Shown here in pieces: positions 2,512-32,933 of a DNA stretch of 33,159 nucleotides. This DNA comes from Chloroflexota bacterium. GTDB lineage: Bacteria; Chloroflexota; Limnocylindria; Limnocylindrales; CSP1-4. The stretch lies in the NCBI GenBank assembly GCA_003156975.1, contig PMIE01000115.1, positions 5,556 through 38,714 on the forward strand, read 5' to 3'. Position 1 is the first letter of the stretch; every line of letters starts with the position of its first letter. The notes beneath the pieces were generated by a model. That model saw nothing but the letters and a program-made list of their open reading frames with translations. It was not told where the DNA came from and did not search any database. Position numbers and translations under genes: made by a program.

Positions 2512-3921
2512 CTAGAAGGCGAAGCGTTCGTAGTGGACTTGCTGATCTGGGATCCGCAGGCGCCTCAGGCTGCTCAGCACTCGAGTCATCATTCCGGTCG
2601 GGCCGCAGACGAAGATGTCGCGTTCGTGGATGTCGGGCACGAGCTTCCGCAGGGCCCTCGGATCGAGCGGATCGACCGGCATCTCGGGCGAGCCGCGGCG
2701 GCCCACCAGGTAGTGGACCGTGGCGCCGCGCAGGCTGGCCAGCTCATCGATCTCGCGCTTGAACACCACTTCTTCAGAACCGCTGGCCCGGTACAGGAGC
2801 GTCAGGTTTCCCCGTGACGCCGGCAACTCTTCGAGCAGCGCCCGCAGCGGCGTGATGCCTATCCCGCCGGCGACAAGCAGAACCTTGGCCCGGGTGCGGG
2901 CCGCTCCGGTCATGGCACCGTGCGGTCCTTCCAGGAAGACACGCGTTCCGACCGGGATCGCCTGGAGCGTCTTTGTGTAGTCGCCCAGTTCCTTGATCGT
3001 GAACCGGAGGAACTTGCCATTGGGCGCGGCCGAGATAGAGAACGGATGAGCCCGGTACCAGCCCTGGCTGGTCAGGAAACGAAGACGGAACCACTGACCG
3101 GCCCGCACGGGAAGCTGATCGAGATCGCGGCCGGCCACGTAGAGCGAGGCAACTCCGGGCGCTTCCTCGACCACGTTGGCGACGTGGAACCGGTGCCGCC
3201 AGGTGATGGCGATCGGCTGGTAGAAGCGGAAGGCGGCCAGCGTGCCAAACGCCAGGACGTAGAGGGCGATCCAATACAAGCGGGCGACCGGATCGGTCGT
3301 GAAGTCCACTCCGACGGAGAGCTGGTGCAGGAAGCCCAGAGCGATAGCCAGATATGTGTAGAGGTGGATGGCGTACCAGGTCTCGTACGAAGCATGGCGG
3401 CGGACCGCCCGGACGGAACTGAAGCCGATGAACACGAACAGCGCCAGGGACACCGCCGACCACAGAACGTACGGATACGTGCCCAACAGCGCGATGAACT
3501 CGTCGACCGGCGAGGCGCCAATTCCCATGGCATAGCCGGCCGTGGTCAGAACTGCATGACCGAACAGCAGCCAGATCGCCCCGAAGCCAACCCAGCGATG
3601 GGCGTCCGTGATTCGATCCTGACCGAAGACCTGGTCAAGCCATGGGCTGCGCGACATCAGGATCAGCTGGATCAGGACCAGATATGTCCCAAAGAGCGCG
3701 CTGATCTCGCCGGCGGCCGTGAAGATGCCGGCGGCAGTGGCAAGTTCGTTGAGGCCGCCGTGGCGGACCCACATGGCCAGGATCAGCAGAGCATTGCCGC
3801 CCAGGATCGCGTACACATCGGTGGCCGTGACGGGCCATATCCGCGGCACCGGCACGCGGCGGGCCTTGCGGGCCGGCGCTGCTGCCAGAGCCGTGTTTCG
3901 TGTGGCGCTAGTGGCGTTCAT
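2512..3921 (-). CDS. Ferric-reductase-type transmembrane flavoprotein with FAD and NAD(P) domains
   Basis: Residues of about 33-240 form a membrane domain of several helices with candidate haem histidines at H108, H122, H186 and H199. A ferredoxin-reductase-type FAD domain follows, with RAHPFSIS at 290-297, then an NAD(P)-binding domain with AGGIGITP (351-358) and a C-terminal FVCGP (437-441). The family moves electrons from NAD(P)H through FAD and haem across the membrane to iron, oxygen or another acceptor. I chose the ATG at 3921 (469 residues): the frame stays open to 4089, but that extra sequence is Cys-rich and unlike the family. The downstream FMN-binding gene suggests a flavin relay outside the membrane. 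The natural acceptor cannot be read from the sequence. Confidence 0.85.
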   Translation of the reverse strand: MNATSATRNTALAAAPARKARRVPVPRIWPVTATDVYAILGGNALLILAMWVRHGGLNELATAAGIFTAAGEISALFGTYLVLIQLILMSRSPWLDQVFGQDRITDAHRWVGFGAIWLLFGHAVLTTAGYAMGIGASPVDEFIALLGTYPYVLWSAVSLALFVFIGFSSVRAVRRHASYETWYAIHLYTYLAIALGFLHQLSVGVDFTTDPVARLYWIALYVLAFGTLAAFRFYQPIAITWRHRFHVANVVEEAPGVASLYVAGRDLDQLPVRAGQWFRLRFLTSQGWYRAHPFSISAAPNGKFLRFTIKELGDYTKTLQAIPVGTRVFLEGPHGAMTGAARTRAKVLLVAGGIGITPLRALLEELPASRGNLTLLYRASGSEEVVFKREIDELASLRGATVHYLVGRRGSPEMPVDPLDPRALRKLVPDIHERDIFVCGPTGMMTRVLSSLRRLRIPDQQVHYERFAF

Positions 3922-4061
3922 CGAGCTGTAGAACTCCAGATCCTGGCTGCTGGGTGCGCCGACCGCGATGACGATGCTCACCGTGTCGGTGCGACTGTGA
4001 TTGCTACAGAGTGGCCTGACAGGGCAAATCATCGTGCAGCCGTCTGTAGTGAAGCTGAACA

Positions 4062-4093
4062 CTCCATGGTGCCCGCATGTGTTTCCCATGGAG
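4062..4093. promoter_or_regulatory. Inverted repeat CTCCATGG-N16-CCATGGAG, candidate operator
   Basis: CTCCATGG at 4062-4069 and CCATGGAG at 4086-4093 are perfect complements separated by 16 nt. Each arm contains the palindrome CCATGG, and their centres are 24 bp apart, close to two helical turns. The site lies between two divergent redox genes (reductase and sodN). The binding protein is unknown; a nickel- or redox-responsive regulator is only a guess. Confidence 0.4.
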
Positions 4094-4173
4094 GCAACGT
4101 GGAGGCGCGGCCGGGTGGCGAACCGGCGAGAACTCGGACCTGGGCCGGCTGCCGGGCCGCAACCACCCTCAGA

Positions 4174-4202
4174 TTGACAGCCAGGCCCGCCGCTCCAACA
4201 CT
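4174..4202 (+). promoter_or_regulatory. Candidate sodN promoter
   Basis: A consensus -35 hexamer TTGACA (4174-4179) is followed after 17 nt by AACACT (4197-4202), a weak -10 with three matches to TATAAT. This would give a leader of about 70 nt before sodN. Confidence 0.35.
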
Positions 4203-4277
4203 TGCTGCAGCCGAGGCCCAGCGAAGCTGCCTGCTTGACTCTTGCCTCGCCAGACGTCCCGTTCCCGGAGGAGACCG

Positions 4278-4697
4278 ATGCCCAGAGTCACAAGCTGGCT
4301 GAAGCCCACAACCACGGTCTATGCACACTGCGACATTCCGTGCGGCATCTACGACCCGCACGCGGCCGAATTGGCCGCCCGAACCGTGGCCCGCATGGTG
4401 GAAATGATCGGCAAGCTGCCGATCGAGAATCCGAGCGTGGCAGATCGCGCCAATCTAGTTCGCTGCATCACGATCAAGGAGCAGCACGCGGAGATCGTGA
4501 AGCACGAGATCCAGGTCATCTGGAGCGACTACTTCAAGGCCGAGCATGTCGAGCGCTACCCGGACCTTCACGACCGGACCTGGAAGATCCTCAAGCTCGC
4601 TTCGAAGAACAAGCAGAACATCGACGCCGCGGCAGCCGCCGAGCTCGAGGCCGCCGTCAAGGAGTTCGCCGACATCTTCTGGTCGACCAAGAAGTAG
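4278..4697 (+). CDS. sodN: Nickel superoxide dismutase
   Basis: The 139-residue product contains HCDIPCGIY at residues 17-25, the nickel hook of Ni-SOD (family consensus HCxxPCGxY). The 16 residues before His17 form the propeptide that must be cleaved so that the His amino group can coordinate nickel together with Cys2 and Cys6 of the mature enzyme. The mature part (123 residues) has the expected helical content, for example the segment KEQHAEIVKHEIQVIWSDYF. The enzyme dismutates superoxide to O2 and H2O2 in the cytoplasm. The start at 4278 is set by GGAGGAG just upstream; an earlier in-frame ATG at 4242 lacks a site and would lengthen the propeptide. The maturation protease gene follows 13 nt downstream. 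Confidence 0.97.
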   Translation: MPRVTSWLKPTTTVYAHCDIPCGIYDPHAAELAARTVARMVEMIGKLPIENPSVADRANLVRCITIKEQHAEIVKHEIQVIWSDYFKAEHVERYPDLHDRTWKILKLASKNKQNIDAAAAAELEAAVKEFADIFWSTKK

Positions 4698-4710
4698 GGA
4701 TCTCCTGAAC

Positions 4711-5157
4711 ATGAACGAGACGCCGGAGGACAACCCTCCGGCGTTCCCTTTTGCCAGAGAGTGGCACCAGGCCCGGCGCGGAACCTGGCGGGTGGCCGTC
4801 GCGGAAGACAGCATGGCCCCGGCCCTGGCCCCGGACGACTGGCTGCTCATCGATCCGACCTGCGATCGCTGGCCGCGCCGCGGGAGCATCGTCGTCTTCC
4901 GCGAGCCGGACACGGATCTGCTCGCGATCAAGCGGGTGGCAGCCCGCCCAGGGGACCGCGTTCGGATTGCCGCCGGGCTCCTCCACCTGGCGGCAGACGA
5001 AGCCTGGCTGCTCGGAGACAACGCCGCCGTCTCGCTGGACTCGCGCCGCTACGGCCCTGTTTCGCTCGACGACCTCGTGGGACGGGCGTGGTTCCGCTAC
5101 TCGCCGGCTAGTCGCATCGGGACGATCAGGCGCCGCGCCGTCAAACCCGGCCGATGA
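4711..5157 (+). CDS. sodX: Nickel-type SOD maturation protease (S26 family)
   Basis: This 148-residue S26 peptidase has the catalytic serine in AEDSMAPAL (Ser34), the general-base lysine in LLAIKRVAARPGD (Lys74) and the late family box LGDNAAVSLDSRRYGPV (101-117). It lacks the N-terminal membrane segments of leader peptidase I, consistent with a soluble enzyme acting on a cytoplasmic substrate. Position directly after sodN identifies it as the protease that removes the Ni-SOD propeptide. The ATG lies 13 nt after the sodN stop, so they probably share a transcript. Its last 17 nt overlap the end of the convergent oxidoreductase gene. Confidence 0.93.
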   Translation: MNETPEDNPPAFPFAREWHQARRGTWRVAVAEDSMAPALAPDDWLLIDPTCDRWPRRGSIVVFREPDTDLLAIKRVAARPGDRVRIAAGLLHLAADEAWLLGDNAAVSLDSRRYGPVSLDDLVGRAWFRYSPASRIGTIRRRAVKPGR

Positions 5158-6094
5158 GCTCGCGGGCGGCCAACTCAATCATGGCGTGGTCCCGAGGCAG
5201 CATGTCCTGGAGCATGATTCGCTCCGCGCCGGCCGCCCCGAACCGCGCGGCCATTGCCCGGGCCTGATCCGGAGTCCCCAGAATCCAGCGTGGTCGATGC
5301 TCTTCCAGCCAGGCCGAGGCATCGGTCCCCGCTTCTCCGACCATCTCCAGAAGGTCCCGCACTCGCCGATCCACTTCGGCCTGATCGGCTCCAATCAGGA
5401 AGCCGGCCATCGCGGACTTGCGCATCGTGGCCGGGTCCCGCCCGATCTTGCGGCACTCGGCGTCCAGCAGAGCGAACTTCTCGGCGCACAGCTCCGGCCC
5501 CGAGCTCGACATGTTGTACTCATCGGCGTATCGAGCGGCCAATCGCAGGGACCTGGGTCTGCCCTCACCGCCCACGATGATCGGAGGGTGCGGTCGCTGA
5601 ACCGGCTTGGGGTTGAAGGAGGCATCCTTGATGGACACCTCCTTGCCCACGAATGACCAGCCGTCCGGCTCCTCCCACAGCCCGTGCAGGATCGCCAGTT
5701 CGTCCTCCATCAGGTCGGCGCGCTTGGCAACATCGGGAAACGGCAGGCCGAGCTGGCTGTGTTCGGCGTCGTTCCACCCCGCACCCACACCAACGTCGAT
5801 CCGACCGCCGCTCATCTCGTCGACCGTCGTGACGACCTTTACGAACGATCCGGGGTGGCGAAACGTGACCGGCGAAACGAGCGTGCCGAGGCGGATGGTA
5901 GTGGTCTCGCGAGCTATGCCGGCGAGAACGGCCCATGCGTCGGTAGTCGGTTTGTCCGTCGGCCCGGGGAAGCTGCGGTAGTGGTCGGACCGGAAGAACG
6001 CCTCAAATCCAAGCCGCTCGGCGAGGCGCGCCAGCTCGAGCTGTTCGACGTAGGTGAGGCCCTGCTGGGGCTCGGTCATCAGTGCGAAGCGCAT
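5141..6094 (-). CDS. LLM-class, probably F420-dependent, oxidoreductase
   Basis: This is a luciferase-like (TIM-barrel) flavin/F420 oxidoreductase of 317 residues. It starts MRFALMTEPQQGLTYVEQLE and contains FFRSDHY, IRLGTLVSPVTFRHP, SGGRIDVGVGAGWN and a later PPIIVGGEGRPRSLRLAARYADEYN segment, all typical of the family. Members transfer hydride between F420H2 (sometimes FMNH2) and small organic substrates; the substrate here is not predictable. The start at 6094 is chosen because CGGAGA lies 7 nt upstream and the protein then begins at the first strand. The frame continues upstream to 6223 but that part looks non-coding. It is convergent with sodX, with a 17-nt overlap. Confidence 0.88.
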   Translation of the reverse strand: MRFALMTEPQQGLTYVEQLELARLAERLGFEAFFRSDHYRSFPGPTDKPTTDAWAVLAGIARETTTIRLGTLVSPVTFRHPGSFVKVVTTVDEMSGGRIDVGVGAGWNDAEHSQLGLPFPDVAKRADLMEDELAILHGLWEEPDGWSFVGKEVSIKDASFNPKPVQRPHPPIIVGGEGRPRSLRLAARYADEYNMSSSGPELCAEKFALLDAECRKIGRDPATMRKSAMAGFLIGADQAEVDRRVRDLLEMVGEAGTDASAWLEEHRPRWILGTPDQARAMAARFGAAGAERIMLQDMLPRDHAMIELAARELIGRV

Positions 6095-30056: not shown

Positions 30057-30165
30057 GCGAACGCATGCCGCGGTCAGACGGTCCCCCCCCAAATGTAGGG
30101 TCGACTTTGGCGCATAAACGCCGATCCTCTACGTAGGCTCCGTGTCCGCGGCAAGCCTTGGCCTT

Positions 30166-30185
30166 GGGGAGCAGAACAGCTCCCC
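30166..30185 (+). promoter_or_regulatory. Leader hairpin upstream of the diguanylate cyclase gene
   Basis: GGGGAGC (30166-30172) and GCTCCCC (30179-30185) form a perfect 7-bp stem with a 6-nt loop, 22 nt before the ribosome site of the next gene. No T-tract follows. A short palindrome CTACGTAG lies at 30129-30136 in the same 162-bp spacer. The hairpin may regulate translation or be an operator, and nothing resembling a known c-di-GMP riboswitch is seen. Confidence 0.35.
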
Positions 30186-30218
30186 GGGGCTGAACCTGAC
30201 CAGTTCTGGAGATGAAAG

Positions 30219-32282
30219 GTGATACGTGCCGGTCCGGACAGCCTCCCACCGATCTTGAGCGCGGCCAGAGTGAATGGATCCGCTGACCGACTGGGTGCAA
30301 TGCTGCGCGGTCGGACATCGACGTCGCCCTCGCATGTACCGGGAGTGAGCTTGATCAACGTCGGGCTGTGGCTGGCCGTCGGCGGTCTGGCTGCGGCTGC
30401 AGCGCTGGCCTTGGCGGGCCAACCGGGAGTGGCGACCATGGTCGCCGTCGGCAGCGCCGGGATGGCCGCGGGCTGGGCGGTAATGTGGGTGATCGTGCGG
30501 CGAACCATCACGCGGCCGATGGATCAGGTAGCGAGTTCGATGGAAACCCTGGCGGCCCGAGACGTTCTCGCGCTCGTCGACGAGCTGTCGAACCTCGCGG
30601 AAGGGGAACAGGCGCAGCAGATCCAGGTCTACGCCAGGCCGGTGGCCCTGCCATCGGACCCGAGTGCCCGGCGCCTGGCCGAGGCTCTGAACACCACCAT
30701 CTCCCGCCTCCAGGGTGGCGCGCATCAGTTTTATGCGGCATCGCAGGACCCCTGTCGGCGGCACTTCTATGTCGGTCCGGACGATTACCTGCTCGGATGC
30801 GGTTGTGCCGAAGCCATGGGCACCCTGCTTCCGGACGGCGGCGTGGTCCTGCTCATGACGCCCCGCTTCCGGCATGCCGGCGTCGAGCTCAGGCGGCGAG
30901 GCTTTGAGAACACGCTGCGCGAGCGATCGCCCAGAATTCACGTTGCTGGAGCGCTCGAGAGCCGTTTCGACGCGACTCGGACGGCGAGTCTGGTCAAGTC
31001 GTTTGTGAAGACACATCCGGATCTTGCCGGCATCTACTGCACCGAGGCGACAGGGGTAGCAGGCTGCATCGAGGCTCTGACCGACCTGAATCTCACGGGA
31101 CGCGTCGTCGTGATCAGCCACGACACCGTCGATGTGACGATGGCCGCCGTTCGAGCCGGCCAGGTGGCGGCCACGATCACCCAGGATCCGTTCGGACAGG
31201 GCCACGACACGGCGATACATCTCTTCAACAGCGTCGCCTTCGGTTGGCGGCCGGATGAGGCTCGGCTGATTACCGTTTCGGACACTGTCACGCGAGACAA
31301 CATCAGTAAGTACTGGCGGCCGTACCTTGGTCCAATCGAGTCCGATGCGATGGCCGAGCGCCGTCCTCGACCGCTGGGCATCTCGGCCCGGCACCTTCGG
31401 ATCGCCATCCTCGGGCTCAAGGACAGCCCCTTCTGGGCGCCGGTAAAGGGCGGCGTCGCAGTCGCGATCGAGGAGCTGGAGCGCTGCAACGCTTCCGTCG
31501 AATGGATCGTGCCCGAGGCGGACGGCCAATACAGCGTCGCGGTCCGCGGCCCGGCCGTGGATGCCCTGGTTGAGGAGGGCTACGACGCCATTGCGACCCC
31601 GATTTACGACTCGGGTCTTGTCCCGTACCTGAACCGAGCGGTCGACCGTGGTGTCGTGGTGGCAACCTTCAACTCGGAAGCATCGAGCCTCCAGGGTCTG
31701 GTCACATCGCTTTCGAAGGAACGGCGGCAACTCGAGATTGCGGCCGGCGACCTTCAGGTTGAGGCGCACCGCGACCCCCTTACCGGTTCCTTCAACCGCC
31801 GGGTCATGGACACCGATCTGGAGGAGATCCAGGTCTCTATCGGCATCTCGAGACGGCCGGCCACAGTGATCATGCTCGACATCGACCACTTCAAGGCATA
31901 CAACGACATCTACGGTCATGCTGCCGGCGACCAGGTCCTCCGGCTGGTTGCACAGCGGATGCAGAAGGAGACAAGGTCCGCGGATCGCCTGTACCGGTAT
32001 GGAGGCGAGGAGTTCCTCGTCCTGCTTCCGGAGACCGCGCTCGAAGAGGGCGAAGCAATAGCCACGAGGATCGCCCGCGCCATCACGATGCTGGGTCTGC
32101 CACATTCGAGGAACGATCCATGGGGCGTCGTGACCGTGAGCGCCGGCGTGGCGGCAATCGACCCGTACAACCCGGCCGCCGGCCTCTCCGTGGCAGCAGC
32201 CGACGCAGCGCTATACCGTTCCAAGGCATCCGGGCGCAACACCGTCGCCACCTCCCACTTGGAGCCCATCACGGACTTCTAA
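30219..32282 (+). CDS. Membrane diguanylate cyclase with permuted periplasmic-binding-protein-like sensor
   Basis: The 687-residue protein has two membrane helices (about 44-66 and 70-93) and a HAMP-like helical stretch beginning RRTITRPMD. It continues with a sugar-binding-protein C-lobe at about 182-346 (FYVGPDDYLLG, HPDLAGIYCTEATGVAGCIEAL, VVVISHDTVDVTMAAVRAGQVAATITQDPFGQG), then an N-lobe at about 392-490 (LRIAILGLKDSPFWAPVKGG, YDAIATPIYDSG, GVVVATFNSEAS), so the two lobes are in reversed order. A GGDEF domain follows (517-680) with DPLTGSFNRR, DIDHFKAYND, the active-site GGEEF at 595-599 and an inhibitory RxxD (586-589). It makes c-di-GMP. With no helix after residue 93, the sensor should be cytoplasmic. 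The GTG start has GGAG at 30208-30211. Confidence 0.88.
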   Translation: MIRAGPDSLPPILSAARVNGSADRLGAMLRGRTSTSPSHVPGVSLINVGLWLAVGGLAAAAALALAGQPGVATMVAVGSAGMAAGWAVMWVIVRRTITRPMDQVASSMETLAARDVLALVDELSNLAEGEQAQQIQVYARPVALPSDPSARRLAEALNTTISRLQGGAHQFYAASQDPCRRHFYVGPDDYLLGCGCAEAMGTLLPDGGVVLLMTPRFRHAGVELRRRGFENTLRERSPRIHVAGALESRFDATRTASLVKSFVKTHPDLAGIYCTEATGVAGCIEALTDLNLTGRVVVISHDTVDVTMAAVRAGQVAATITQDPFGQGHDTAIHLFNSVAFGWRPDEARLITVSDTVTRDNISKYWRPYLGPIESDAMAERRPRPLGISARHLRIAILGLKDSPFWAPVKGGVAVAIEELERCNASVEWIVPEADGQYSVAVRGPAVDALVEEGYDAIATPIYDSGLVPYLNRAVDRGVVVATFNSEASSLQGLVTSLSKERRQLEIAAGDLQVEAHRDPLTGSFNRRVMDTDLEEIQVSIGISRRPATVIMLDIDHFKAYNDIYGHAAGDQVLRLVAQRMQKETRSADRLYRYGGEEFLVLLPETALEEGEAIATRIARAITMLGLPHSRNDPWGVVTVSAGVAAIDPYNPAAGLSVAAADAALYRSKASGRNTVATSHLEPITDF

Positions 32283-32414: not shown

Positions 32415-32933
32415 ATGCCCGACCTGCACTCCAAGCCGCGACGACCTCGCCCGGTAAGCGGTGCGGAGGGCACCCTCATCGTCGGCTACGGCAATACCCT
32501 GCGCCGTGACGATGGCCTGGGCTGGCGCGCGGCTGAGCTCCTCGCCGACGATCCGCGGCTCCGTGGAGCGCGCGTTCTCTGGCAACAGCAGCTGACCCCG
32601 GAACTGGCAGTCGACGTCGGTGAGGCGTCGCTCGTCATCCTGATAGACGTCGCCGACGGGGACGAGGCGGGCGCTCTCTCGGTCCGACGGCTTGATCCGG
32701 CCGTCATGGCCGCTCCTGCCGGATCGGCCATGACGCACCACCTGGAGCCGGAGACACTGATCGCGCTGGCGCGCGACCTGTGGAACGCATCACCGGCCGT
32801 CTTCGTCGTGAGCGTCGTCGCGGCCTCCCTGGAGGTCGGCGACGGCCTTTCGGAAGCGGTAGAGCAGGCACTCCCGGCCGTTGTCGACGCGGTCGTCGCC
32901 ATCGTCGCCGAACACGATCGGCCGGCAGGCTAG
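32415..32933 (+). CDS. Hydrogenase maturation protease (HybD/HupD family)
   Basis: This 172-residue protein has the family N-terminus TLIVGYGNTLRRDDGLGWRAAELL (20-43), where the acidic residue after the first Asp is a nickel ligand. The second Asp lies in VILIDVADG (Asp78), and the histidine region is AMTHHLEPETLIALA (108-109). These endopeptidases remove the C-terminal tail of the large subunit of [NiFe] hydrogenases once nickel is inserted. No hydrogenase structural gene is in the window; it may lie just beyond the right edge. About 18 residues precede the fold start. The start ATG has GAGGG upstream. Confidence 0.9.
   Translation: MPDLHSKPRRPRPVSGAEGTLIVGYGNTLRRDDGLGWRAAELLADDPRLRGARVLWQQQLTPELAVDVGEASLVILIDVADGDEAGALSVRRLDPAVMAAPAGSAMTHHLEPETLIALARDLWNASPAVFVVSVVAASLEVGDGLSEAVEQALPAVVDAVVAIVAEHDRPAG

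Follow-up and report, generated by a model that had tools for sequence, protein, structure and literature searches.

The window, by which we mean the whole 33,159-nucleotide stretch of DNA analysed here, carries a diguanylate cyclase gene whose open reading frame, placed at 30219-32282 by the initial annotation, was confirmed, and whose start region, VIRAG, is common to the nearest ortholog (L039). The 687-residue product runs from a membrane hairpin through a HAMP-like stalk to the C-lobe of a sugar-binding protein, a linker, the N-lobe and a GGDEF domain. Its features are as follows.

30219..32282, + strand: whole cyclase gene, an open reading frame of 687 aa with a GTG start
30348..30500, + strand: two-helix membrane hairpin, about aa 44-94, from a hydropathy scan and the sequence
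30495..30602, + strand: HAMP-like segment, aa 93-128, a Pfam match below cut-off
30660..30743, + strand: incoming signalling helix, aa 148-175 (H56-83 of the AlphaFold2 model)
30729..30776, + strand: incoming junction, aa 171-186, with N-lobe strand 5 (FYVG) at its end
30750..31316, + strand: C-lobe piece of a type I sugar-binding protein, aa 178-366, with pocket residues R225, H301, D302 and Q322
31317..31388, + strand: linker, aa 367-390, between the former C-terminus and the former N-terminus
31389..31685, + strand: N-lobe piece (strands 1-4), aa 391-489, with pocket residues F405, W406 and N485
31689..31772, + strand: outgoing helix toward the output domain, aa 491-518 (H399-426 of the AlphaFold2 model)
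31764..32240, + strand: GGDEF diguanylate cyclase domain, aa 516-674, from Pfam
31974..32015, + strand: RSAD inhibitory-site motif and GGEEF active-site loop, aa 586-599

An open frame of 658 aa also lies antisense to the cyclase (30129-32105, - strand) and is probably a product of high G+C content. Downstream of the cyclase (32415-32933; L127) the genes resemble, by eye, one for a hydrogenase maturation protease and, after it, a NiFe-hydrogenase operon; the protease-like gene gave no Pfam match at 1e-5.

The membrane hairpin has a very short loop and an Arg-rich cytoplasmic side. The stalk behind it had been read as HAMP-like; the cyclase's own HAMP score is below the Pfam cut-off (17.8 bits against 25), although 13 of 38 relatives match HAMP at E <= 0.01, with a best E of 5.5e-6. 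At the other end of the protein, the output is a GGDEF domain (PF00990, 140.3 bits), as the initial annotation had it, and it looks intact. All six cyclases of the family described below retain DxDHFKxxND (DIDHFKAYND in the window cyclase), RxxD and GGEEF, the inhibitory site RxxD (here RSAD) lying five residues ahead of the GGDEF motif, and with these motifs intact the enzyme is expected to be active and product-inhibited.

The sensor between these two ends matches Peripla_BP_4 (PF13407) at 106.2 bits against a curated cut-off of 35.1, and 38 of 38 relatives match the same family at E <= 0.01. The match falls into two stretches in swapped order, profile positions 91-245 at aa 177-330 and then positions 7-90 before the GGDEF domain; the canonical order of N then C is absent and the lobes run C then N, in agreement with the earlier reading. 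The lobe borders, aa 178-366 (C) and 391-489 (N), come from profiles of relatives. When the N-lobe piece was moved ahead of the C-lobe piece, PF13407 matched in a single continuous run over positions 7-245 at 121.4 bits; in the same test the natural order scored 108.7 bits, split over two stretches. The re-permuted sequence also gave the better best single alignment for 41 of 41 unpermuted relatives, which excludes chance. The closest of these relatives are free sugar-binding lipoproteins, 39-45% identical after re-permutation; L075 aligns to the re-permuted sequence at 245 bits over 294 columns with 44% identity and to the natural order at 156 bits. In addition, when each lobe was searched separately, the N-lobe profile matched sugar-binding proteins of known structure in their N-terminal lobes (2qvc residues 3-93, E 4.5e-11) and the C-lobe matched them in their C-lobes.

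An AlphaFold2 model of the module using 38 natural sequences (mean pLDDT 86.8, pTM 0.83) passes from a long helix to a strand at model residues 91-94, the C-lobe, the linker, four N-lobe strands and a long exit helix. The best whole-module structural match is permuted TpMglB-2, which aligns to model residues 77-384 (286 residues, rmsd 3.4, Z 23.8, 13% identity), whereas, of the canonical binding proteins among the matches listed, most align to about 85-280 only, the C-lobe, with Z 23-27. A Foldseek comparison agrees, with TpMglB-2 matched over both lobes and canonical proteins over the C-lobe. As Foldseek and the other structure alignments keep chain order, a canonical protein can match one lobe only; such one-lobe matches are therefore expected and are no argument against a single unit. 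The N-lobe piece predicted alone reached a pLDDT of 87.1, and its model matched the N-lobes of ribose-, glucose- and AI-2-binding proteins with Z 10-13. The model and its alignment with TpMglB-2 over both lobes support the earlier proposal that the two lobes form one bilobed unit; neither two complete domains in normal order nor lobes folding apart were seen in the prediction.

The model also locates the cut point. Four N-lobe strands (E301-306, E333-338, E365-368 and E388-392) follow the linker and one (E91-94) precedes the C-lobe, and the cut therefore lies between N-lobe strands 4 and 5. These two strands are adjacent in the order 2-1-3-4-5-6 given for canonical proteins (PMC4990184), and from this order we infer that chain entry and exit are side by side, with the entry and exit helices close together beside the hinge. 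The C-lobe that the initial annotation placed at residues 182-346 is indeed there, but it ends near aa 366 rather than 346, and it does not start at the crossover: the cut is inside the N-lobe, one strand ahead of the first crossover.

The same arrangement recurs well beyond this gene. The permuted module was found in 41 rows (39 distinct sequences), with the lobes in the order C then N in all of them and a linker of 24-29 residues in every member (24 in the cyclase). The output is an MCP domain in 35 rows and GGDEF in six, the window cyclase among these six. The window's genome encodes a second permuted protein, a chemoreceptor (MCP) with the same lobe order, and some 20 other proteins of the genus show that order too. 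Within the phylum the permuted family is rare and patchy, with modules in 5 of 400 genomes, 4 of these in the same genus. Public genomes with the module are labelled Chloroflexota, Bacteroidota, KSB1, Acidobacteriota and Spirochaetota, labels that derive from metagenome bins in which single contigs may be mislabelled; a search for phage or viral relatives of the module found none. As the module also serves chemotaxis receptors in several phyla, it would be a reusable chemical sensor for the cell interior.

In a tree of both lobes, obtained by a quick search with SH-aLRT support only, the permuted rows form one clade (SH-aLRT 100). Its sister group in this tree, from which TpMglB-2 was absent, consists of canonical free sugar-binding proteins (L075, L076, L077 and L079), and the six cyclases form one clade nested among the MCPs. 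With a single permuted clade and a single cyclase clade, one permutation and one later output switch suffice. The junctions are suggestive of how the permutation came about. The peptide [FLY]NxxT...CxRLxxVG precedes the first strand in 35 of 35 MCP rows and is a copy of the canonical strand 4-strand 5 loop (L075 TFNSETAEPNKRLFFVG), part of which the cyclases lack, while the far end of the module reads FNSE or a near variant in 41 of 41. This loop at both ends of the module is as expected from a trimmed tandem duplication, and the repeat, although short, may be its scar. The module arose once, from a free sugar-binding protein; the probable route is a tandem duplication that lost sequence at either end, and the tree supports a single transfer onto GGDEF in this Chloroflexota lineage.

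In order to map the pocket, we used what we take to be the ligand-contacting residues of E. coli RbsB. The positions of R141 and D215 are each kept in 41 of 41 permuted rows, Q235 in 40 and F15 in 39, and the F16 position is aromatic (W or F) in 41 of 41. D89 is replaced by Asn in 40 of 41 permuted rows and likewise in the free relatives shown. The F214 position is His in 41 of 41 permuted rows, compared to Phe or Tyr in 36 of 37 canonical sequences. As judged from these residues, the pocket looks functional but altered. Among individual residues of the window cyclase, C179 in the incoming junction, H301, H334 and W343 (nt ~30753, 31119, 31218 and 31245) are near-invariant in the permuted clade and differ in most canonical relatives; the H301 position is within the sugar pocket, and C179, H334 and W343 are likewise specific to the clade.

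GGDEF and MCP signalling domains act in the cytoplasm. A hydropathy scan placed all membrane helices of the family ahead of the sensor, with none between sensor and GGDEF or MCP output; an isolated match at residue 750 of L069 falls inside the MCP tail. One member, L070, has no membrane helix, and its start codon stands behind a purine-rich stretch. The lack of a span between sensor and output, together with this membrane-free member, places the sensor in the cytoplasm, where the initial annotation had put it from the position of both helices upstream of the sensor. L070 itself (~2989-5235, labelled Acidobacteria) joins the permuted sensor to an MCP domain as a soluble receptor.

Gene neighbourhoods gave less direction. 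The adjacent phosphofructokinase gene had been taken as support for a metabolic role, a point that did not survive comparison: such a gene lies beside one of the five other cyclases, that of the nearest ortholog L039, and the linkage, common to L039 only, was rejected as a functional clue. The cyclase L041 is on the same contig (matched by coordinates) as a flagellin gene (947-2113), about 1 kb upstream, and the cyclase L042 sits among MCP and CheW genes; flagellin was found in 6 of 7 genomes of the genus checked, the window's genome included. The paralogous MCP of the same genome (C61; L007, L125) adjoins a rhamnose-type cluster and a CUT2 transporter, its neighbours including rhamnulokinase-like, RhaD/ADH-like and transaldolase genes, and L065 adjoins GH97, GH109 and sugar-kinase genes. 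The rhamnose-type cluster is absent beside the other permuted genes and was rejected as a general clue. The neighbours of the paralogous MCP and of L065 point to sugars, without conservation and with no consistent ligand.

Several known systems resemble parts of this arrangement. TpMglB-2 (Tp0684; PDB 6bgc), a circularly permuted glucose-binding lipoprotein described as 'Type Ic / Cluster Bc' (PMC4990184), is likewise a type I sugar-binding protein that is permuted in nature, its N-lobe strands following the C-lobe, and the module is therefore not categorically new. In TpMglB-2, however, three N-lobe strands have moved (cut 3|4; PMC4990184) compared to four here (cut 4|5), and that protein is extracytoplasmic (periplasmic), unfused and a proposed ABC-transporter partner, whereas the sensor described here is cytoplasmic and fused to GGDEF or MCP. 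PDB 5er3, a sugar-binding protein of Rhodopirellula baltica, also matches the family in non-canonical order, with the break inside the C-lobe (chain 31-261 corresponds to profile 149-387, and chain 183-329 to the start of a canonical relative); from these alignments it appears to be circularly permuted within the C-lobe, a third natural cut point. No paper on this structure was found among the open-licence papers searched. The Anaerolineae CUT2-type lipoproteins L075, L076 and L079 belong to the same family and share the R/D/Q/N/W pocket, but are secreted and have the canonical lobe order; L079 adjoins an ABC permease and ATPase.

The clostridial protein L085 also combines a Peripla_BP_4 domain with an MCP signalling domain, its sequence showing no membrane span that separates the two, and represents a second, unpermuted route by which a sugar-binding protein comes to lie beside a chemoreceptor output inside the cell. 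In the clostridial proteins (L085-L118, ~700 aa) the domain has the canonical order and sits at the C-terminus; being at the chain end, it needs no permutation. Binding-protein sensors on c-di-GMP enzymes are known from CdgH, a diguanylate cyclase with a periplasmic PBP-clan sensor (PMC5431781), and RmcA, an arginine-sensing enzyme with SBP_bac_3 (PMC8846402), but these are described as periplasmic, and neither has a permuted Peripla_BP_4 inside the cell. A search of open-licence papers for receptors or GGDEF proteins with a permuted binding-protein domain yielded TpMglB-2 and engineered permutants only, which is weak evidence of absence; the permuted cytoplasmic sensor module has apparently not been described before.

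We therefore read the gene as encoding a diguanylate cyclase regulated by an in-line, cytoplasmic, permuted type I sugar-binding (Venus-flytrap) domain that arose once and was later moved to GGDEF, and we give this reading a probability of roughly 85%. Sequence and model show a binding protein cut between N-lobe strands 4 and 5, its old ends bridged by a linker of about 25 residues and its new ends bearing long helices, one leading to the membrane and HAMP-like stalk and the other to GGDEF; catalytic and pocket residues are intact. Such a cut would place chain entry and exit on adjacent strands near the hinge. If the cleft closed on a small, sugar-like metabolite of the cytoplasm, it would displace the entry and exit helices, or the dimer that they form, and thereby turn c-di-GMP synthesis up or down.

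Four other explanations were weighed against this one. That the sensor consists of two incomplete or decaying binding-protein domains side by side could be read from the two separate partial stretches given by Pfam, but the profile ranges of the two pieces (91-245 and 7-90) complement each other exactly, and the pieces occur together in 41 rows from several phyla and score higher when rejoined; two separate domains were rejected on these re-permutation scores, and we regard this explanation as highly improbable. We give just as little credence to a sensor that faces the periplasm. A review does place the PBP-clan domains of c-di-GMP proteins there (PMC8846402), but here the two membrane helices precede the sensor, no span separates it from the GGDEF or MCP output, and L070 has no membrane helix at all.

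The remaining two are unlikely to a lesser degree. The sensor might now bind no small molecule and act within the stalk as a structural part or as a docking site for another protein, such as a transporter or metabolic enzyme; the unconserved neighbourhood would fit, as would the His that all permuted rows carry where nearly all canonical relatives have Phe or Tyr, but a pocket that had lost its function would hardly be expected to retain its R (41/41), D (41/41), Q (40/41) and stacking W or F (41/41), and we consider this improbable. Marginally less probable still is a domain-swapped dimer in which each cleft is formed by the C-lobe of one protomer and the N-lobe of its partner. In general, cyclases and chemoreceptors function as dimers or in larger assemblies, and a 24-residue linker could permit either pairing. 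Engineered halves of ribose-binding protein swap segments in crystals (PMC9815098). Against this, the two lobes of the single-chain model are already arranged as in TpMglB-2, and linkers of constant length (24-29 aa) are found across phyla.

A cytoplasmic permuted flytrap in line with its output, the reading that we prefer, is a natural circular permutation whose functional rationale is plain. At a chain end no rearrangement is needed to fuse a free binding protein, and the clostridial receptors are examples of this; an in-line seat between two signalling helices needs adjacent ends, and the permutation supplies them. The finding adds a cytoplasmic sugar-type Venus flytrap to the known sensors of chemoreceptors and diguanylate cyclases. 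Its 39 distinct sequences in one clade make a testable family for how a fold of this kind drives coiled-coil signalling, and the module is a natural template for permuted biosensors. We tentatively suggest, as a possibility that falls somewhat short of an even chance, that the module is a transport-type sugar-binding protein turned by one permutation into an in-line intracellular metabolite sensor, pluggable between HAMP-like stalks and various outputs (chemotaxis, c-di-GMP), and that its His-for-Phe pocket reads a cytoplasmic, perhaps phosphorylated, sugar, in which case motility and c-di-GMP would follow the internal carbon status of the cell rather than the outside medium.
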